Assembly (NCBI GenBank): GCA_017543335.1
Contig: JAFYGE010000064.1
Location: forward strand, 1 to 57,035
Source of the DNA: Ruminococcus sp.
GTDB lineage: Bacteria > Bacillota > Clostridia > Oscillospirales > Ruminococcaceae
DNA: 57,035 nucleotides
Reading direction: 5' to 3'
Shown: positions 22,279-32,139 of the stretch, piece by piece
How positions within the stretch are numbered: position 1 is the stretch's first letter
How the letters are laid out: every line of letters starts with the position of its first letter
Translations under genes and position numbers: made by a program
The notes under the pieces: generated by a model
Databases searched by the model: none
What the model was told of the DNA's origin: nothing
What the model saw: the letters and a program-made list of their open reading frames with translations, nothing else

Positions 22279-23388
22279 TTACTTCTTGTTATTTTTCTTT
22301 GATGAGCCGTTCTTCTTGCCGGAAGTATTCTTCTTAGCAGCAGGAGCATCCTTCTTTTCAACCGGCTTTTCTTCCTTTGGAGCTTCCTCCTTCTTAACAG
22401 GAGCAGCTTTCTTTTCCGAACCGCCGTTTTCCTTTGCTGCCTCTCTTGCCTTCCACCATGACCATGTTGCAGGTGCAACATAGAGTGATGAGTATGTACC
22501 GGAGATAAGACCGAACATAAGCGGTACAGAGAAGCTGAGAAGTGAATGATAACCGGTTATAAGAACAACGATAGTGATGATAAGCATTGTGCTTATAGTT
22601 GTTATAGAAGTTCTGATAGAACGTGTAAGTGACTGAGTGCAGCTTACATTGATAAGCTCATTAAGAGAAGCCTTTGGCATGAGCTTGCGGTTTTCTCTGA
22701 TTCTGTCGTAGATAACGATAGTATTGTTGATAGAGTAACCGAGAATTGTAAGAAGTACTGCAACGGTATTTGAGTTGAATTCAAATCCGAAGAGAATATT
22801 GATAGTTATTGCAACGAGGAGGTCGTGGCAGAGAGCGAATATTGAGCATACACCTGCTGACCAACCACCTATTCTGCGGAATCTTATAGCGATGTAGATG
22901 ATAACTATAAGAGCTGCGAAAGCAATAGCTACGAGACACTTGATGAAGAACTCACGGCCTGTTGACGGGTTAACGTCGTTTGAGTCAAAGAGTTCGATCT
23001 CATTGTTCGGGAACTTCTCCTGAAGCTTGTTAGTAAGCTCAGACTGCCTGTCGCCTGTGAAGCCTTCCTTTGTGCTGAATGAGATAGTTATCTGCTTGTC
23101 GCCTGTTGAGATACTCTCACCCTTGCGGACGTTAACGGAAGTATCAACGAGTTCCTTAACTGCCTTTTCGACCTCAGCAGTGTCAACATCGCCGCTGTAG
23201 GTATAAGTCATCATAGTACCGCCCTTGAACTCGATAGCGATATTCACGCCTCTGATGATAAGTCCGACGATAAGAGCGATAACAACACCGATAACGATGC
23301 TGAGTATCATTTTTTTCTTTCCGGTGATGTTATAAACCTTTTCAGGCATGAGTGCCTCTATATCCTTTTTAGTCTTTTTAGTACTCAT
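22279..23388 (-). CDS. secF: Protein translocase subunit SecF
   Basis: Partner of SecD in the SecYEG-associated complex that uses the ion gradient to pull secreted proteins across the membrane. 369 residues: first membrane helix (about 28-48), EFKGGTMMTYTY and a small periplasmic-side domain, then five helices from about 160 with FALCHDLLVAITINILFG, SINNTIVIYDRIREN and TSITTISTML. The last 55 residues form a long Lys/Glu/Ala/Pro tail (repeated KKxxAPxxEKPVEKK) that is much longer than in standard SecF and is positively charged, perhaps binding ribosomes or lipids. The ATG overlaps the secD stop by 4 bp. Confidence 0.95.
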   Translation of the reverse strand: MSTKKTKKDIEALMPEKVYNITGKKKMILSIVIGVVIALIVGLIIRGVNIAIEFKGGTMMTYTYSGDVDTAEVEKAVKELVDTSVNVRKGESISTGDKQITISFSTKEGFTGDRQSELTNKLQEKFPNNEIELFDSNDVNPSTGREFFIKCLVAIAFAALIVIIYIAIRFRRIGGWSAGVCSIFALCHDLLVAITINILFGFEFNSNTVAVLLTILGYSINNTIVIYDRIRENRKLMPKASLNELINVSCTQSLTRSIRTSITTISTMLIITIVVLITGYHSLLSFSVPLMFGLISGTYSSLYVAPATWSWWKAREAAKENGGSEKKAAPVKKEEAPKEEKPVEKKDAPAAKKNTSGKKNGSSKKNNKK

Positions 23389-24797
23389 TCTGCATCACCT
23401 CCGTAAAGCTTTTTACTTTTAAAGCATTTGAACTTTGAAAGTGATGTAACCATAAGTCTTGAAGCGAACACACCCATTACGAAGTTGAGTATAACACCTG
23501 CGAGGAGTGTGAAGCCGAATGAGTAAACGAAACCTTCAGCAGTTGCTCCGAACATGAAGAATATAGTCTTGTTGAGTATCTTTGAGAAGAAGCTTGAAGG
23601 AACACCGAATGCACCCATAAGGATAACAGCGATGATAACGTTTGTTATGTTACCGTCAAGGATAGCAGAGAAAGCTCTCTTGTAAGCGACCTTGATAGCA
23701 CCATCGAGGCTCTTGCCTGATTTGAGCTCTTCCTTGATACGCTCACCTGTGATGATATTAGCGTCAACGCCCATACCAACAGCGAGGATGATACCTGCGA
23801 TACCGGGGATAGTAAGAGTTGAACCCGGCATGAATCCGAACCAGCCTGTTACGAATGCGATAGAACCTGTGATCTGTCCCATAAGAGCGAGAACTGCAAC
23901 GAATCCCGGAAGTCTGTAAAGGAATACCATATATACTGCGATAAATGCAAAAGCAATACCGGCAGCAAGAAGTATAGCATCGAGTGAACCCTCACCCATT
24001 GTAGGTGAGATAGTATTTGTGCTCTTTGTCTCCATTTTGAAAGGAAGAGCACCGCCGTTGATCTGGTCAGCGAGCTTCTTAGCTGAATCGTAAGTAAAGT
24101 CACCGGTGATAACAGCACTTCCGTCTGTGATAACTGCATTTACGGAAGGAGCAGAGATCTGCTCATCATCCATCCAGATAGCGATCGGAACGCCTGAGCT
24201 CATAGCCTGACTTGTAGCGTTTGCGAATTTTTCTTTACCTGTATCTTTAAGTTCAAGCTCAACAACATATTCCATCTGCTTGGATTCTTCGTTGTTCTGA
24301 TGACGTACTGAAGCTGACTCTACATCTCCGCCCTTTAAAACCACTTCACCGGTGTAAGCGTTCTTACCTGTTACGTCGGTAGTAGTCTCAGTACCCATAC
24401 GGAAAGTGAGCTCAGCCATTTCGCCGAGTTCCTTTACGGATGACTCAGGGTCGAAGTCTTCTTCGCCTGCCTGCCAAGGGAAACGAACAATAATTCTGTT
24501 ACTTTTGCTGTCGCTGTAGACCTCACTGTCTGTGATACCCAGAGATGAAAGTCTGGTCTTGATGATCTCTGTAGCAGCATCGAGCTGAGCAGAAGATGCA
24601 TCATAGTCATCTGCTGGCTCAAAAGTAGCGTCAACACCGCCCTTGATATCGATACCAAGACGGATGTCGTCAACACCCTTGATTATAGTTTTCGGTATAT
24701 CACCATATCTGTAGTCTACACCGAAAATAGCAGAGCATGAAAACAGTGCGATAATAGCAACGACAATGAAGAAAGTTGATTTGCCGATCTTTTTCAC
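23385..24797 (-). CDS. secD: Protein translocase subunit SecD
   Basis: 470 residues: N-terminal helix, DIRLGIDIKGGVDATFEP (the SecD D-x-G-G motif), a large extracytoplasmic P1 domain to about 265, and six helices. Conserved IPGIAGIILAVGMGVDANIITGERIKEEL lies in two blocks near 330-360. The start is taken as GTG (24797): AGGAGG is 8 nt before it, while the TTG two codons upstream is only 2 nt from it. It is cotranscribed with secF. It acts at the membrane late in protein export. Confidence 0.95.
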   Translation of the reverse strand: MKKIGKSTFFIVVAIIALFSCSAIFGVDYRYGDIPKTIIKGVDDIRLGIDIKGGVDATFEPADDYDASSAQLDAATEIIKTRLSSLGITDSEVYSDSKSNRIIVRFPWQAGEEDFDPESSVKELGEMAELTFRMGTETTTDVTGKNAYTGEVVLKGGDVESASVRHQNNEESKQMEYVVELELKDTGKEKFANATSQAMSSGVPIAIWMDDEQISAPSVNAVITDGSAVITGDFTYDSAKKLADQINGGALPFKMETKSTNTISPTMGEGSLDAILLAAGIAFAFIAVYMVFLYRLPGFVAVLALMGQITGSIAFVTGWFGFMPGSTLTIPGIAGIILAVGMGVDANIITGERIKEELKSGKSLDGAIKVAYKRAFSAILDGNITNVIIAVILMGAFGVPSSFFSKILNKTIFFMFGATAEGFVYSFGFTLLAGVILNFVMGVFASRLMVTSLSKFKCFKSKKLYGGDAE

Positions 24798-24896
24798 GGT
24801 CAATGCCTCCTAATTATTTCGGACTTTTTCTCCGGCATGACAGATACGCTGCCGGCAGTACGTCCTTTTATTTCTGTCTCTGTGACAATTACAATT

Positions 24897-25031: not shown

Positions 25032-25442
25032 TCACTTGAAATGCTTTTGTGATACTTTAAGGCGATTCATAGCACGGTTCAGGGCAGCCTGAGTCTGATA
25101 ATACTCTTTGATGCTCTGTTTTTGTCTGAGCTTTTCTTCAGCTCTTTCTCTTGCCTCTTCAGCACGCTTTATATCTATTTCCTCCGGAAGTTCGCAGGAA
25201 TCCGCAAGGATGACCGACTTATCAGGCATTACCTGTATAAATCCGTCTGATATAGCGGCATATCGCCATTTTCCGTCCACCATGTATTTCAGCTCTCCGG
25301 CAGGAAGGGCAGTTACGAGCGGTTCATGACCGGCAAGTATTCCCAGAAGTCCGTCTATAGCAGTTATAACAAGGTGTTCACAGTCGCCCTTATAGAATAT
25401 ACGGTCAGTAGTGACTATCTCAAGGTGAAAGGTCTTAGCCAT
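25032..25442 (-). CDS. atpC: F1Fo ATP synthase epsilon subunit
   Basis: 136 residues: N-terminal beta-sandwich (FHLEIVTTDRIFYKGDCEHLV, GLLGILAGHEPLVTAL) and a C-terminal helical hairpin from about 88 (ELPEEIDIKRAEEARERAEEKL in part). It couples the gamma stalk to the c-ring and can inhibit ATP hydrolysis. It starts 12 nt after atpD with GGAGG in the gap. The last gene of the operon. Confidence 0.95.
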   Translation of the reverse strand: MAKTFHLEIVTTDRIFYKGDCEHLVITAIDGLLGILAGHEPLVTALPAGELKYMVDGKWRYAAISDGFIQVMPDKSVILADSCELPEEIDIKRAEEARERAEEKLRQKQSIKEYYQTQAALNRAMNRLKVSQKHFK

Positions 25443-25454
25443 AATGCTCCTCCC

Positions 25455-26861
<1,407 letters not shown>

Positions 26862-26892: not shown

Positions 26893-27810
26893 TCATTCAT
26901 TATTTTCATCAAGGCTTGCTGCACCGCCGCAGACCTCTGTGATCTCCTGAGTGATAGCTGCCTGTCTTGCACGGTTATAGAGAAGTGACAGGTCTTTTAT
27001 CATATCTTTTGCACTTGTAGTAGCAGCGTCCATAGCGGTCATTCTTGACTGCTGTTCACAGCAGAAAGCCTCGACCATAGCACCGTAGATTATACCCTTG
27101 GCATAATTTGGTATCAGATGCGACATAACTTCCTCCGGTGAAGGCAGGAATGAAGCTTTAGGCAGCTTTCTCATAGTACCGTCCGGAGATTTTCCGAAAT
27201 GTCTGCGTTCAAAAGGCAGAAGCTGGACAGTTCTTGTCTCCTGAAGATTAGAGTTAACCATATCCGTATACAATACATATACTTCATCGAGCTCGCCGTT
27301 CTCGAACTTATCAAGAATGAGCTGAGCTATCTCCATAGCCCTGTACAGGGTAGGGTTCTGGGTAGTATACAGGAATTCGCCGTCTACCGAAGCTTTCGAG
27401 CTGTTCCTGTTGCGGTTCGTGAAATACTGTCTTCCCACCTGACCTATTACGAAAAGGTAGCAGTTGCTTATATCCGCAGACTTTGCAAGCTCCTGTTCGG
27501 TATATTTCAGGATATTATGGTTATAGCTTCCGCACAGACCCTTATCGGCAGTAACGACGATATATCCTTTTTTACGCTTTTCCGGCGGAATATCGCTTCT
27601 GCGGTCGAAATACATCTGGCGGGTATGGGGAGTATGTTCAAGAACGCTCTCGATAGTCTCCTGAAGCTTATAGAAATACGGCTCTGTAGCTTCCAGCGAC
27701 TTCCTTGCCTTTTTTAATTTAGATGAGGACATAAGGTACATGGCGTTAGTGATCTTCAATATCTGCTGGATACTGGCGATACGCTCTCTGATCTCTCTCA
27801 TGTTAGCCAT
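26893..27810 (-). CDS. atpG: F1Fo ATP synthase gamma subunit
   Basis: 305 residues: N-terminal helix (MREIRERIASIQQILKIT, then NAMYLMSSSKLKKA) and C-terminal helix (ESRMTAMDAATTSAKDMI, LYNRARQAAITQEITE) that form the rotating coiled coil, with the central Rossmann-like part (VVTADKGLCGSYN). It is slightly longer than the usual 285-290 residues because of a central insertion. A GAGGTGAC site precedes the ATG. It lies 11 nt after the delta-alpha gene. Confidence 0.95.
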   Translation of the reverse strand: MANMREIRERIASIQQILKITNAMYLMSSSKLKKARKSLEATEPYFYKLQETIESVLEHTPHTRQMYFDRRSDIPPEKRKKGYIVVTADKGLCGSYNHNILKYTEQELAKSADISNCYLFVIGQVGRQYFTNRNRNSSKASVDGEFLYTTQNPTLYRAMEIAQLILDKFENGELDEVYVLYTDMVNSNLQETRTVQLLPFERRHFGKSPDGTMRKLPKASFLPSPEEVMSHLIPNYAKGIIYGAMVEAFCCEQQSRMTAMDAATTSAKDMIKDLSLLYNRARQAAITQEITEVCGGAASLDENNE

Positions 27811-27821
27811 AATGTCACCTC

Positions 27822-29858
27822 TTATTCTTCAAAAGCAGTAACTATACGCTCGATACGCTCCATGAGGTCATCTGTAAGGACTTTATTTTCCTCGATCTCA
27901 TTGATTATATCCTGACCATAGGTATTGATATAGCTCATAAGGTCGCTGCAGTATTCTTTGAGTTCCTTTATAGGGATACCTTTGAAAAGATCATGCTGAG
28001 CCGCATAGAGAAGTATTACCTGTTCATAGTGCGGATGAGGATTATAGAGCGGCTGTTTCAGCAGCTCTGTAAGCATATGACCGTGATCCAGAAGGTCGGT
28101 TGTAGCCTGATCCAGTTCTGACGAGAACTGTGTGAATATTTCCATTTCCTTGAACTGAGCAAGGTCGATACGAAGATTTCCGGCAGCTTTTTTCATAGCC
28201 TTTGTCTGAGCAGCACCGCCTACACGGGATACAGAAAGTCCGTAGTTTACAGCCGGTCGCAGACCAGAGTTGAAAAGTTCGCTTTCAAGGAATATCTGTC
28301 CGTCAGTGATAGAGATAACGTTTGTAGGGATATAAGCTGAAATATCACCTGCAAGAGTCTCTATTATCGGCAGAGCTGTAAGTGAACCGCCGCCGTGTTC
28401 GTCATCCAGACGGCTTGAACGCTCAAGGAGTCTTGAATGGAGGTAGAATACGTCACCGGGGTAAGCTTCACGTCCCGGAGGTCTGTGGAGCAGAAGTGAC
28501 ATAGCTCTGTATGCAACGGCATGTTTTGAAAGATCATCATATACTATAAGTACATCCTTGCCCTTTGACATGAAGTATTCAGCGATAGCAGTACCTGAAT
28601 AAGGCGAGATATACTGGAATGGTGCAGGGTCGCTGGCAGATGCACAAACAACTACAGAGTAGTCCATAGCACCGTATTTTTTAAGTGTGCTTACGACCTG
28701 TGCAACAGTAGAGGATTTCTGTCCTATAGCAACATAAACGCAGATAACGTCCTGACCCTTCTGATTTATGATAGTATCGATAGCGATAGAGGTCTTACCG
28801 GTCTGTCTGTCGCCGATAATAAGTTCACGCTGACCTCTTCCTATAGGGAACATGGAGTCGATAGCGAGTATACCGGTCTGGAGCGGTACATTTACAGGCT
28901 TACGCTCGATAACTCCCGGAGCTTCACGCTCGATAGGGAAGTAGTCCTCAGCATTTATAGCTCCGAGTCCGTCTATAGGTGAACCGAGAGCATCCACAAC
29001 TCTGCCGAGAAGAGCATCACTTACACCGATACCGGCTCTTTTGCCTGTTCTTATAACAGATGAGCCCTCAGTAAGTCCGTGATCGTCACCGAGCAAAACT
29101 ACGCCGACGGTCTTTTCTTCAAGGTTCTGAACTATACCACGGATACCGGTCTCAAATTCAACAAGCTCGCCGTACATTACAGAATTCATTCCACGCACTC
29201 TTGCAATACCGTCACCAAGACGTGTAATGAAGCCTGTCTCAGTAGCACCGGCTTTTACATCGAAGTCCTTGACTTCGGTTTTAAGTATGGAGATTATGTC
29301 TCCGGTTTTACCGGAAGAGATCTTTTTACCGTCTGCCTGATCCACAAACTCAGCAGCCTTATTATGAAGGCTTTCCTTCATAAGGCGGAGACTTGTACGA
29401 TAGCTCTTATCGTACTCAACATCGCCTGCATTGAGGATGAAACCGCCTATAATATCCGGATCGTGGCGATATTCGATGATAACATCGTTCTTGACAAATT
29501 TCTCCATGATATATTTGCGGAGATCAGCCTGCTGTGACTCTGTTAAAGGAGTAACATAGCGGACTACAGCACGGATGCTTCCGTCCTTTTCGATGAGATA
29601 GTCCATATACTCATCGAGTATAGCAGTTATCCTGTCAGCAGAACCGCCTTTTACGGCATTGAAAACGAATTTATGTACACTTTCCGGAAAGAGCTTTTTA
29701 ATGATATTCTTCTTCTCATCCTGTGTTACCAGAGGATTTCCGAGAGTATCGACTGCATCAGGGCATGAAGAGAGTATATTTTTTGTTTCCTCAGCATCTT
29801 CCTGAGGCACTTCTAAGCGGATAAGTTCATTCAGAAGGTCTTTTTCAAAATCGTTCAT
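27822..29858 (-). CDS. atpHA: Fused ATP synthase delta-alpha protein
   Basis: One reading frame of 678 residues with two subunits. Residues 1-171 are the delta (OSCP) subunit: helical bundle with [17 protein letters not shown] at 41-57, then the C-terminal part [16 protein letters not shown] and [19 protein letters not shown] short linker (about 172-184, polar, with KKISSGK) joins it to a complete alpha subunit: [11 protein letters not shown] near 186, [10 protein letters not shown] at 214-223, P-loop GDRQTGKTS near 345-352, and the [15 protein letters not shown] segment. In most bacteria atpH and atpA are separate. No ATG with a ribosome binding site is visible at the junction; the only inner candidates are Met160 and a GTG at 172. 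Its start overlaps the atpF stop by 1 nt (TAATG). Three alpha copies per F1 would bring three delta domains, whereas one is normal. Confidence 0.95.
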
Positions 29859-30346
29859 TACTTTCCGCCCTCCTCTTCAGAGAGGAATTTATCTACGAGA
29901 CGGCGGTTCTTCTCGTCATCGACATTTTCACCGATGATCTTTGAAGCGGCTTCTATAGCGAGATCTGCGATCTCTGTCTGAGCCTGAGCGAGAACTCTCT
30001 TACGCTCTGTCTCTATAGCCTTATTAGCGTCAGCAACGATCTGATCTGCTTCCTCCTGAGATCTGCGGATCATAGCAGCCTTTTCTGATTCAGCTTCCTC
30101 ATGAGCCTTCATGAGTATCTTCTGAGCCTCTGCCTTAGCGTCGCCTATATCGTCGGCATACTGCTGTTTGAGAGCCTCTGCCTCCTCACGGGACTTCTTT
30201 GCGTTATCAATATCATCCTGAATAGAGCGTGTACGCTCATCCATCATTTTTCTGATAGGTTTGAAAAGGAATATTTTCATAAGTATAAACAGCAATACAA
30301 GGTTTATCGCTGCCCATATAAAGTTCCAGATGTCTATATCCAGCAT
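29858..30346 (-). CDS. atpF: F1Fo ATP synthase b subunit
   Basis: 162 residues: one N-terminal membrane helix (about 6-26, [18 protein letters not shown]) and a long charged coiled coil (about 35-140) that forms the peripheral stalk with delta, ending in [19 protein letters not shown]. The ATG follows AAAGGAGGGAAGG. It binds the delta part of the fused protein encoded next, with a 1-nt overlap. Confidence 0.95.
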
Positions 30347-30385: not shown

Positions 30386-30607
30386 TCATTTAAGGAAAAG
30401 TATGATGAGCAGAGCGATTACGAAACCGTAAATAGCTGTAGCCTCTGCGAGAGCACATCCGAGAAGGAGTGCTTTATTTATATCGCCCTTTGCTTCCGGC
30501 TGACGTGCGATAGCGTCAGCAGCCTTTGATGTTGCGATACCGATACCGATACCTGCTCCTGCACCTGTAAGTACAGCAAGACCTGCACCTATTGCGATCA
30601 TTCCCAT
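30386..30607 (-). CDS. atpE: ATP synthase c subunit, second tandem copy
   Basis: 73 residues, two membrane helices around the polar loop ARQPEAKGD. The ion-carrying Glu is in CALAEATAIYGF. By comparison with Na+-type c subunits the Gln on helix 1 is Ile (GAGIGIGIA) and the Ser after the Glu is Ala, so protons are the likely coupling ion. It differs from the first copy only at residue 35: Arg here, the usual residue of the loop that contacts the stalk, versus Lys there. Transcribed second, 22 bp after the first copy. Confidence 0.95.
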   Translation of the reverse strand: MGMIAIGAGLAVLTGAGAGIGIGIATSKAADAIARQPEAKGDINKALLLGCALAEATAIYGFVIALLIILFLK

Positions 30608-30629: not shown

Positions 30630-30851
30630 TCATTTAAGGAAAAGTATGATGAGCAGAGCGATTACGAAGCCGTAAATAGCAGTAGCTTCTGCAAGAGCAC
30701 ATCCGAGAAGGAGTGCCTTGTTTATATCACCTTTTGCCTCCGGCTGCTTTGCGATAGCATCAGCAGCTTTAGAAGTAGCGATACCGATACCGATACCTGC
30801 TCCTGCACCTGTAAGTACAGCAAGACCTGCACCTATTGCGATCATTCCCAT
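30630..30851 (-). CDS. atpE: ATP synthase c subunit, first tandem copy
   Basis: 73 residues, 72 identical to the next gene. Loop ALOOP position 35 is Lys (AKQPEAKGD). At the DNA level the first 70 bp and the last 40 bp or so of the two genes are identical while the middle carries about 20 silent differences, which looks like gene conversion at both ends. Both copies have good ribosome binding sites (GGAGG). Two copies would raise c supply for the ring or allow rings of mixed composition. Confidence 0.95.
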   Translation of the reverse strand: MGMIAIGAGLAVLTGAGAGIGIGIATSKAADAIAKQPEAKGDINKALLLGCALAEATAIYGFVIALLIILFLK

Positions 30852-30886: not shown

Positions 30887-31576
30887 TTATTCTTCTTCCA
30901 TTGCCTCTGACATGAACAAAGATGTCAGGAATACAAATACATATGCCTGTATGCAGCCGTCGAAAACGTCGAAATAGAAGCTGAAGACCAGCGGCAGACC
31001 TACAGGGATGATGAGCTTGATAAGCTCCATGATAACGAAAGCACCAAGAACGTTACCGAAAAGTCGCATACAAAGTGAAAGCGGCTTTATGACAAGTTCG
31101 AGGATATTCAGCGGAAGCATGAATGCCATAGGCTCTTTAAAGCCTTTCATCCAGCCTTTTATACCTTTTTCACGTATACCGCTGAACTGTATGAGCAGTA
31201 TAGCGAATATCGCAAGTGTAGCTGTAACACCGAGGTCTTTCGTAGGCGGACGTAGTCCGACAAGTCCTATCACATTGGATATACCTATGTAAAGCAGCAG
31301 GGTCTCAAGTACAGGAAGGTACTTTTTTCCCTTCGGACCAAGTATTTCAAGGAAGAAATTGTCCATCCAGCATATAAAGCCTTCAACAAGGCACTGGAAG
31401 CCCTTTGGCACCACCTTCATTGTTCTTGTGAATATAATAGAACCTATTACCAGAACAGCCATGATGATCCATGTCATAACACAGGATTCCGGCACAGGTA
31501 TACCTCCGAATATAGGGATCGTAAAAGAAGTACGGCATTCAAGCTCTTCCATAAGCTTATCTGCAAGATCGCCCAT
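30887..31576 (-). CDS. atpB: F1Fo ATP synthase a subunit
   Basis: 229 residues, about five or six membrane helices. The essential Arg is in LSLCMRLFGNVLGAFVIM near residue 170. It forms the proton half-channels next to the c-ring. An in-frame ATG 24 codons upstream (31648) has no ribosome binding site and would run through a terminator hairpin; the ATG at 31576 follows AGAAGG and is chosen. First structural gene of the operon; no atpI is seen upstream. Confidence 0.95.
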   Translation of the reverse strand: MGDLADKLMEELECRTSFTIPIFGGIPVPESCVMTWIIMAVLVIGSIIFTRTMKVVPKGFQCLVEGFICWMDNFFLEILGPKGKKYLPVLETLLLYIGISNVIGLVGLRPPTKDLGVTATLAIFAILLIQFSGIREKGIKGWMKGFKEPMAFMLPLNILELVIKPLSLCMRLFGNVLGAFVIMELIKLIIPVGLPLVFSFYFDVFDGCIQAYVFVFLTSLFMSEAMEEE

Positions 31577-31604
31577 AATAACACCTTCTTTCAAAATAGA
31601 ATAA

Positions 31605-31641
31605 GAAAAACGGAGATCGCCGTTAAGCAAACGTCTCCGTT
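31605..31641 (-). terminator. Intrinsic terminator in the leader of the ATP synthase operon
   Basis: Minus-strand stem AACGGAGA/TCTCCGTT (31634-31641, 31609-31616) with inner stem CGTT-TGCTT-AACG and a bulge, followed by TTTTTCTTATT. It lies between the promoter (31725-31753) and the atpB start, 30 nt before the ATG, so it can act only as an attenuator of this operon or as a block to read-through from upstream. Confidence 0.75.
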
Positions 31642-31724
31642 GATTCATCTTAGAACTGCGGAAAAATATCAGTCCGGAAGGACTTTATTTCAAGCTTGAG
31701 AACAGCTGTGCGTTCATATAACTA

Positions 31725-31794: not shown

Positions 31795-32139
31795 TCATGC
31801 ATTGTCAAGTCCGTCGCCCTCGGCAAGTCTTACTGCACGATCAAGCCTTTCTATAGCACCGGAATTGAGTTTTTCCGTTAGCCTTACTCTGTCGAGTTCT
31901 TTCTTGAAAGATGAAAGCTCGGCAGCTATACGGCTCATTATCTCTTTATTTTTTACTTCCTGATCTTCAAGAGCACAGACCCTTTTTATAAGATCATTGA
32001 CATTTGCCGCAAGTGCCTCATTTGCTTCATTTTGTCTCTCACCGAATTCAGTGAGCTTTGCCGGAGCTTTTAGTGCACTAAGCTTTTCATGTCCGTTGAA
32101 GGTCAGCATTTTTTCTTTTGTAAGCTTCATGTCTGACAT
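31795..32139 (-). CDS. Hypothetical coiled-coil protein
   Basis: 114 residues, soluble, highly charged. Residues 40-105 have heptad-like spacing of Leu/Ile (VNDLIKRVCALEDQ, LSSFKKELDRVRLTEKL) and should form a coiled coil. No family recognised. It sits alone between the rhamnose cluster and the ATP operon; AAGGA lies 10 nt before the ATG. No terminator is visible before the ATP operon promoter, so its transcript may run into the operon's leader terminator. Confidence 0.65.
   Translation of the reverse strand: MSDMKLTKEKMLTFNGHEKLSALKAPAKLTEFGERQNEANEALAANVNDLIKRVCALEDQEVKNKEIMSRIAAELSSFKKELDRVRLTEKLNSGAIERLDRAVRLAEGDGLDNA

Follow-up and report, generated by a model that had tools for sequence, protein, structure and literature searches.

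The ATP synthase operon of a Ruminococcus genome encodes the delta (OSCP) and alpha subunits as one polypeptide, in a gene confirmed here to be a real delta/OSCP-alpha fusion, and we consider it likely that this polypeptide would place three delta domains in each F1. In its textbook form the F-type ATP synthase contains a single delta, a single stalk and a single a subunit, and its c-ring determines how many protons an ATP costs. A delta:alpha ratio locked at 1:1 in principle lifts the one-stalk limit; that this is feasible has been shown with an engineered version. Related bacteria hold many natural candidates, full-length, N-domain-less and membrane-anchored, some of them alongside an ordinary enzyme that provides an internal control; the existence of natural multi-stalk ATP synthases is therefore directly testable.

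A delta-alpha fusion gene in a complete atp operon

The fusion gene (atpHA) is a single uninterrupted frame of 678 codons that starts with ATG and occupies positions 27822-29858 on the minus strand of the window (the whole 57,035-nucleotide stretch of DNA that was analysed). Pfam places an OSCP/delta match at fusion residues 18-164 (86.2 bits against a cut-off of 22.3; profile positions 22-172 of 172), which covers both the N- and the C-domain of delta, and the alpha domains ATP-synt_ab_N, ATP-synt_ab and ATP-synt_ab_C at residues 208-272, 329-544 and 551-676. The NCBIfam atpA model TIGR00962 matches residues 185-677 with 760.5 bits (cut-off 484.45), and this match, together with the P-loop GDRQTGKT at residues 349-356 (28791-28814, minus strand), marks the second part as an F-type alpha subunit. 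A previous reading of this DNA, made from its letters and open reading frames (hereafter the sequence-only reading), had described delta and alpha in one frame of 678 residues with an intact P-loop, and the ORF list and family matches bear this out. Its division into delta, linker and full alpha also stands, whereas the borders that it had drawn by eye, with delta ending at residue 171 and alpha starting at 184, give way to family matches that end at 164 and begin at 185.

Along the minus strand, the protein comprises a delta N-terminal domain (residues 1-94; 29577-29858), a stalk-binding delta C-terminal domain that in fusions is conserved far above the N-domain (95-165; 29364-29576), a variable linker (166-184; 29307-29363) and the alpha subunit (185-678; 27825-29306), which opens with a conserved N-terminal helix region (185-200). 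Across the Ruminococcus loci the linker varies in length and has a mean pairwise identity of 33%; the stretch from YDKSY to DIIS, two motifs that were both found in 57 of 58 loci, ranges from 26 to 41 residues.

By the ORF list, Pfam and NCBIfam the operon is complete and has the order a-c-c-b-[delta-alpha]-gamma-beta-epsilon. On the minus strand, the fusion is preceded by atpB for the a subunit (30887-31648; Pfam and NCBIfam, with the best NCBIfam match beginning at ORF residue 30), two atpE genes for the c subunit (copy 1, 30630-30851, assigned by its translation; copy 2, 30386-30607, by Pfam) and atpF for the b subunit (29858-30346; PF00430, 98 bits), and it is followed by atpG (gamma, 26893-27810), atpD (beta, 25455-26852) and atpC (epsilon, with both domains present, 25032-25442), all three matched by Pfam and NCBIfam. 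The stop codon of b overlaps the fusion ATG as TAATG, with GGAGG upstream. The tandem c-subunit products differ by one residue (R/K), and the c copy number is one or two among relatives; by its motifs, the window c subunit looks to be of the proton type (no Na+ glutamine). Two ORFs near the operon (22279-24803) presumably correspond to SecF and SecD, which they resemble, and a 114-aa ORF upstream of atpB (31795-32139) has no Pfam match.

The window genome (2.45 Mb in 95 contigs, 85.9% complete) yielded neither a free delta nor a free alpha: the single OSCP match and the single alpha match at E <= 1e-120 are both the fusion. The same genome (G000) encodes a V-type ATPase A subunit (contig C24, 16196-17923; 930 bits, under the archaeal model cut-off of 972) and RnfC (contig C8, 47057-48307; 436 bits, over cut-off), consistent with a fermenter that has several ion-coupled machines.

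Conservation of the fusion in Ruminococcus

The window genome is a draft in 95 contigs, a circumstance that would favour an assembly or frameshift artefact; we regard such an artefact as practically negligible and reject assembly error, because 54 of 59 same-genus genomes carry delta within the same long frame and the frame is also intact on megabase contigs, namely a 3.6 Mb contig (G035, L051) and a 1.45 Mb Ruminococcus flavefaciens scaffold (L058). The 54 genomes include one in which the fusion is cut by the contig end (G036) and one in which the frame is broken inside alpha (G033, locus L018). Among the remaining five, G017, G022 and G037 (82, 64 and 73% complete) gave no OSCP match, and G016 and G054 hold a separate delta only. 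The sequence-only reading had asked for related genomes to be checked for assembly error, and these independent assemblies speak against an interruption of the frame, by stop codon or frameshift, between its two parts.

A scan of named genomes returned eight fusion loci, seven labelled Ruminococcus (R. flavefaciens MAGs among them) and one labelled 'Clostridiales bacterium Firm_05'. Four Ruminococcus genomes with the fusion also hold a second, unfused F-type operon (L004, L007, L009, L013), and in another, G045, the fusion is found on two contigs (L070, L071).

Four architectures across Clostridia and beyond

A profile of the deltaC-alpha junction (A1) was run over 394 genomes of the order, 391 of the class and 398 of the phylum, three samples that overlap (the window genome is in each). 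Uninterrupted delta plus alpha frames, a few of them cut short (G201, G916, G643), were found in at least 70 of 394 order, 35 of 391 class and 13 of 398 phylum genomes, all three counts being lower bounds, for the order among the matches listed and for class and phylum with a cut at E 1e-30; any match to the profile was found in at least 205 of the 394 order genomes. The survey of atpH-atpA junctions that the sequence-only reading had proposed thus shows the fusion to be recurrent across Clostridia and beyond.

The 152 fused loci fall into four architectures, assigned by the length of the N-terminal extension and, for class D, by eye. Class A, the full-length delta-alpha form, comprises 72 loci, 63 from Ruminococcus (58 unique) and 9 from other groups. 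Class B (64 loci) joins the C-domain only to alpha. Class C (15 loci, 736-784 codons) places a b-like membrane segment before deltaC and alpha (L032, L033, L153, L154, L156, L160, L162, L164-L169, L171, L173), and class D, deltaC-deltaC-alpha, is a single locus (L157). The N-domain is absent in classes B, C and D, that is, in 80 of the 152 fused loci. Pfam backs class D (two OSCP stretches), class B in three loci and class A in two outside Ruminococcus, and the N-termini of three class C proteins tested match ATP-synt_B (29-41 bits, cut-off 28) together with OSCP. N-terminal hydrophobicity is at least 2.11 in all 15 class C loci and at most 1.26 in classes A and B, so that none of the 72 class A loci, the window included, has a b-like membrane anchor ahead of delta; separate b genes have a median of 2.38 and a lowest value of 1.17. 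In the fetched stretches, 13 of the 15 class C loci also hold a separate, shorter b gene (median 141 aa).

Unfused forms were seen as well. Free-standing deltaC genes of 72-74 aa lie between b and alpha, without an N-domain, at L034, L035, L221 and L222. F-type operons L217 and L224 have no delta between b and alpha, and a canonical separate delta lies elsewhere in each genome; the short N-terminal extension of alpha at these two loci may be a delta remnant. Genome G300 carries two similar atp operons (L222, L223) on a single contig, one with a broken alpha frame. The fusion is not required, because unfused sister lineages and free-standing deltaC genes exist.

Evolutionary history

In a tree of 150 alpha rows, the Ruminococcus fusions form one clade (100/99), as do the class C fusions (100/100). 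The full-length fusion L046 groups with 11 unfused rows (100/99) and is therefore separate from the Ruminococcus fusion. Ten changes between fused and unfused states and six between presence and absence of the N-domain are placed on this tree, which is unrooted, so that some of the changes may be fissions. As reconstructed from these alpha sequences, fusions arise and/or split repeatedly. A single origin of the fusion was rejected by the AU test, with groups set by architecture under LG+G4 (p = 1.6e-75 for 97 fused rows and 3.7e-67 for 21 full-length rows).

The tree keeps 12 of the 63 Ruminococcus fusion loci; L018, with its broken alpha frame, is among the 51 left out. Also left out were 15 unfused loci from the phylum set, L008 (with a truncated alpha), L021 (from the genome that also holds L209), L050 (not fused), L037 (nearly a duplicate), L175, L174 and L155 (because of their long branches), L223 (the broken alpha copy), and L001 and L100-L104, which repeat loci that had been included.

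Selection on the delta domains

Among 201 Ruminococcus pairs, dN/dS falls from 0.19 in the delta N-domain, where synonymous sites approach saturation (dS 1.4), to 0.07 in the C-domain and 0.04 in alpha, and both halves of the fusion are therefore under purifying selection. Mean pairwise identity runs in the same order, at 0.53, 0.79 and 0.89 (57 of 58 Ruminococcus loci). When compared at matched alpha identity, the C-domain exceeds the N-domain by 0.25 to 0.27 in the Ruminococcus fusions vs 0.03 to 0.05 in unfused deltas (63 loci, one genome being represented twice). What is specific to the fusion, as far as these alignments indicate, is a tightened stalk-holding C-domain, the N-domain being about as conserved as in unfused deltas, although clade-specific rates could be an alternative cause of the contrast. 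The idea that the N-domain is a decaying relic in Ruminococcus is not borne out by its dN/dS of 0.19, and the contrast is one of a tightened C-domain, not a relaxed N-domain.

In some bins the other subunits b, gamma, a and c also show higher or lower conservation in the fused than in the unfused set. For the 30 C-terminal residues of b, identity is 0.67 in fused vs 0.41 in unfused loci at alpha identity 0.80-0.85, and 0.73 vs 0.60 at 0.85-0.90. In the 0.80-0.85 bin the rest of b is also more conserved in the fused set, by 0.12-0.14, and in some higher bins it is the unfused set in which whole b, a and c are better conserved. The better-conserved C-terminal end of b is suggestive only, because the rest of b, a and c also shift between the sets.

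Little signal for an internal start

Free alpha could be made from the fusion gene if translation also began near the junction, where in-frame ATG and GTG codons occur. Shine-Dalgarno pairing was scored, as anti-Shine-Dalgarno energy, at each in-frame ATG, GTG or TTG near the junction. Over the 152 fused loci, duplicates included, -6 kcal/mol or below is reached by 12% of 448 junction codons and 8% of 3058 alpha-body codons, vs 74% of 506 real starts, a set that is somewhat favoured because each was chosen as the best candidate around the homologous start. The small excess at the junction is in the direction that internal initiation would predict; for ATG alone the figures are 7% of 182 junction codons vs 8% of 1492 in the alpha body, and by the best candidate per 70-codon stretch, 26% of junctions vs 21% of alpha-body stretches reach the threshold. 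In the 58 unique Ruminococcus loci the median energy is -11.8 kcal/mol for the strongest start among codons 1-20 vs -2.6 for the best internal one, which is also the value of the window's own best internal candidate; the linker there lacks a good internal ribosome-binding signal, as the sequence-only reading had remarked.

An internal candidate at or below -6 kcal/mol is present in 6 of the 58 Ruminococcus loci, and in five of these it is one aligned GTG, corresponding to Val201 of the window. This moderate signal counts in favour of an internal start, but Val201 lies past the conserved alpha N-terminal stretch 185-200, only 5 of the 58 loci have the signal, and the window is not among them. 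The Ruminococcus loci also show no dip in synonymous divergence at the junction. With so little ribosome-binding signal above background and no synonymous dip, internal translation of free alpha appears unlikely, and it is very improbable that the fusion is a minor form beside free alpha made in this way. Since the fusion is conserved and no good internal start is apparent, three delta domains per complex, as the sequence-only reading had suggested, would be the default expectation.

Proposed mechanism and alternatives

We propose that F1 would be built from three delta-alpha chains, each alpha bringing its own delta, with the covalent link taking the place of the docking that a free delta needs. 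There would be one stalk-binding delta C-domain per alpha, not one per enzyme, and the number of stalks would therefore no longer be limited by the supply of delta. By analogy with the engineered deltaN-less fusion, a natural multi-stalk enzyme is plausible, and the Ruminococcus enzyme itself may have more than one b2 stalk, and hence more than one a subunit, although we hold this as a possibility somewhat short of probable. The retained N-domains of Ruminococcus would have to share one central seat, and stalk occupancy may therefore be lower (one to three, or mixed). That the N-domain is often absent in fused lineages could be because the link makes its docking less necessary. A class C enzyme would have a membrane anchor on each of its alpha chains, and short of cleavage it could hardly keep to a single stalk.

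Two published points stand against multiple stalks in the window enzyme. The N-domain, which is retained there, is said in PMC12229609 to restrict stalks to one, and in the same paper most particles of an engineered delta-alpha enzyme on grids have no stalk (15%) or one (51%), with three in 8%. It is quite possible, if on balance doubtful, that three delta-alpha chains enter each F1 and one N-domain docks on the three-fold axis, giving one stalk and two idle deltas. This would agree with the role given to the N-domain in that paper and with its purifying selection in Ruminococcus; however, it is the C-domain and not the N-domain that shows the extra conservation, and related fusions have no N-domain at all. 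We think it rather unlikely that a post-translational cut yields free delta and alpha, and thereby an ordinary single-stalk F1 with the surplus delta discarded. The linker is polar and variable in sequence and length, properties expected of a tolerated cleavage site, but the Ruminococcus consensus shows no conserved linker motif, two deltas would be wasted per F1, and in the b-deltaC-alpha class a cut would presumably release membrane-anchored b-delta in a 3:3 ratio.

Our preferred reading remains that of three delta-alpha chains able to hold more than one stalk. Extended to the whole family, it would mean that multi-stalk ATP synthases are common in Clostridia, a suggestion we make tentatively: delta-alpha would provide three seats, the N-domain would be dispensable and repeatedly lost, b-deltaC-alpha would make three stalks obligatory, and the full-length fusion of the window would be the state that keeps the N-domain. 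Up to three a subunits would raise H+/ATP and could allow fermenters to make ATP, or to pump, at very low proton-motive force, to which the fusion may thus be tied.

Comparison with known systems

The sequence-only reading knew of no experimental study of this arrangement, a statement overtaken by a published engineered fusion with cryo-EM structures, in which the Bacillus PS3 delta C-domain (residues 105-178) was joined to alpha (PMC12229609, Nat Commun 2025). According to that paper, gels of the deltaN-less enzyme show about twice the wild-type amount of a and b, cryo-EM shows up to three stalks and three a subunits, and H+/ATP is 5.8 vs 3.0. From its place on the three-fold axis, its authors argue, the delta N-domain restricts natural enzymes to one stalk. 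The engineered deltaDeltaN-alpha FoF1 (PDB 9jc1) resembles the window protein in the joining of the delta C-domain to the alpha N-terminus, and its chain 9jc1_I, from the paper's own deposition, aligns to window residues 95-672; it differs in having 580 aa without a delta N-domain, whereas the window protein has 678 aa and keeps the N-domain under purifying selection.

The paper also points to a natural fusion without the N-domain in Acidaminococcus fermentans and to two more UniProt entries. Like the window gene, that of A. fermentans is a natural delta-alpha fusion in an atp operon, but by the paper's description it lacks the delta N-domain and so belongs to class B, which is therefore already in print (PMC12229609). 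Ruminococcus and Clostridia are not mentioned in the main text of that paper, and our literature search turned up none of full-length class A, class C and class D. New here are the full-length fusion, with its delta N-domain kept under purifying selection, the spread of fusions, which arise and/or split repeatedly, over 70 or more of the 394 order genomes, and the b-deltaC-alpha triple fusion together with one deltaC-deltaC-alpha protein.

Delta-b fusion proteins, and no delta-alpha one, are reported in the available sections of PMC5709465. The mycobacterial b-delta protein (PDB 7jg5_d; PMC5709465) is like the window protein in that delta is fused to a neighbouring operon product; there, however, delta sits on b and alpha is separate, whereas class C joins b, deltaC and alpha. 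N-ATPase operons, as described in PMC5709465, have the order beta-epsilon-...-a-c-b-alpha-gamma without delta, unlike the a-c-c-b-deltaalpha-gamma-beta-epsilon order of the window, which is not of the N-ATPase type. The canonical F-type enzyme of Bacillus PS3 (6n2y) has the same subunits, and its delta and alpha match the window protein by sequence, but they are separate, with one delta per three alpha.
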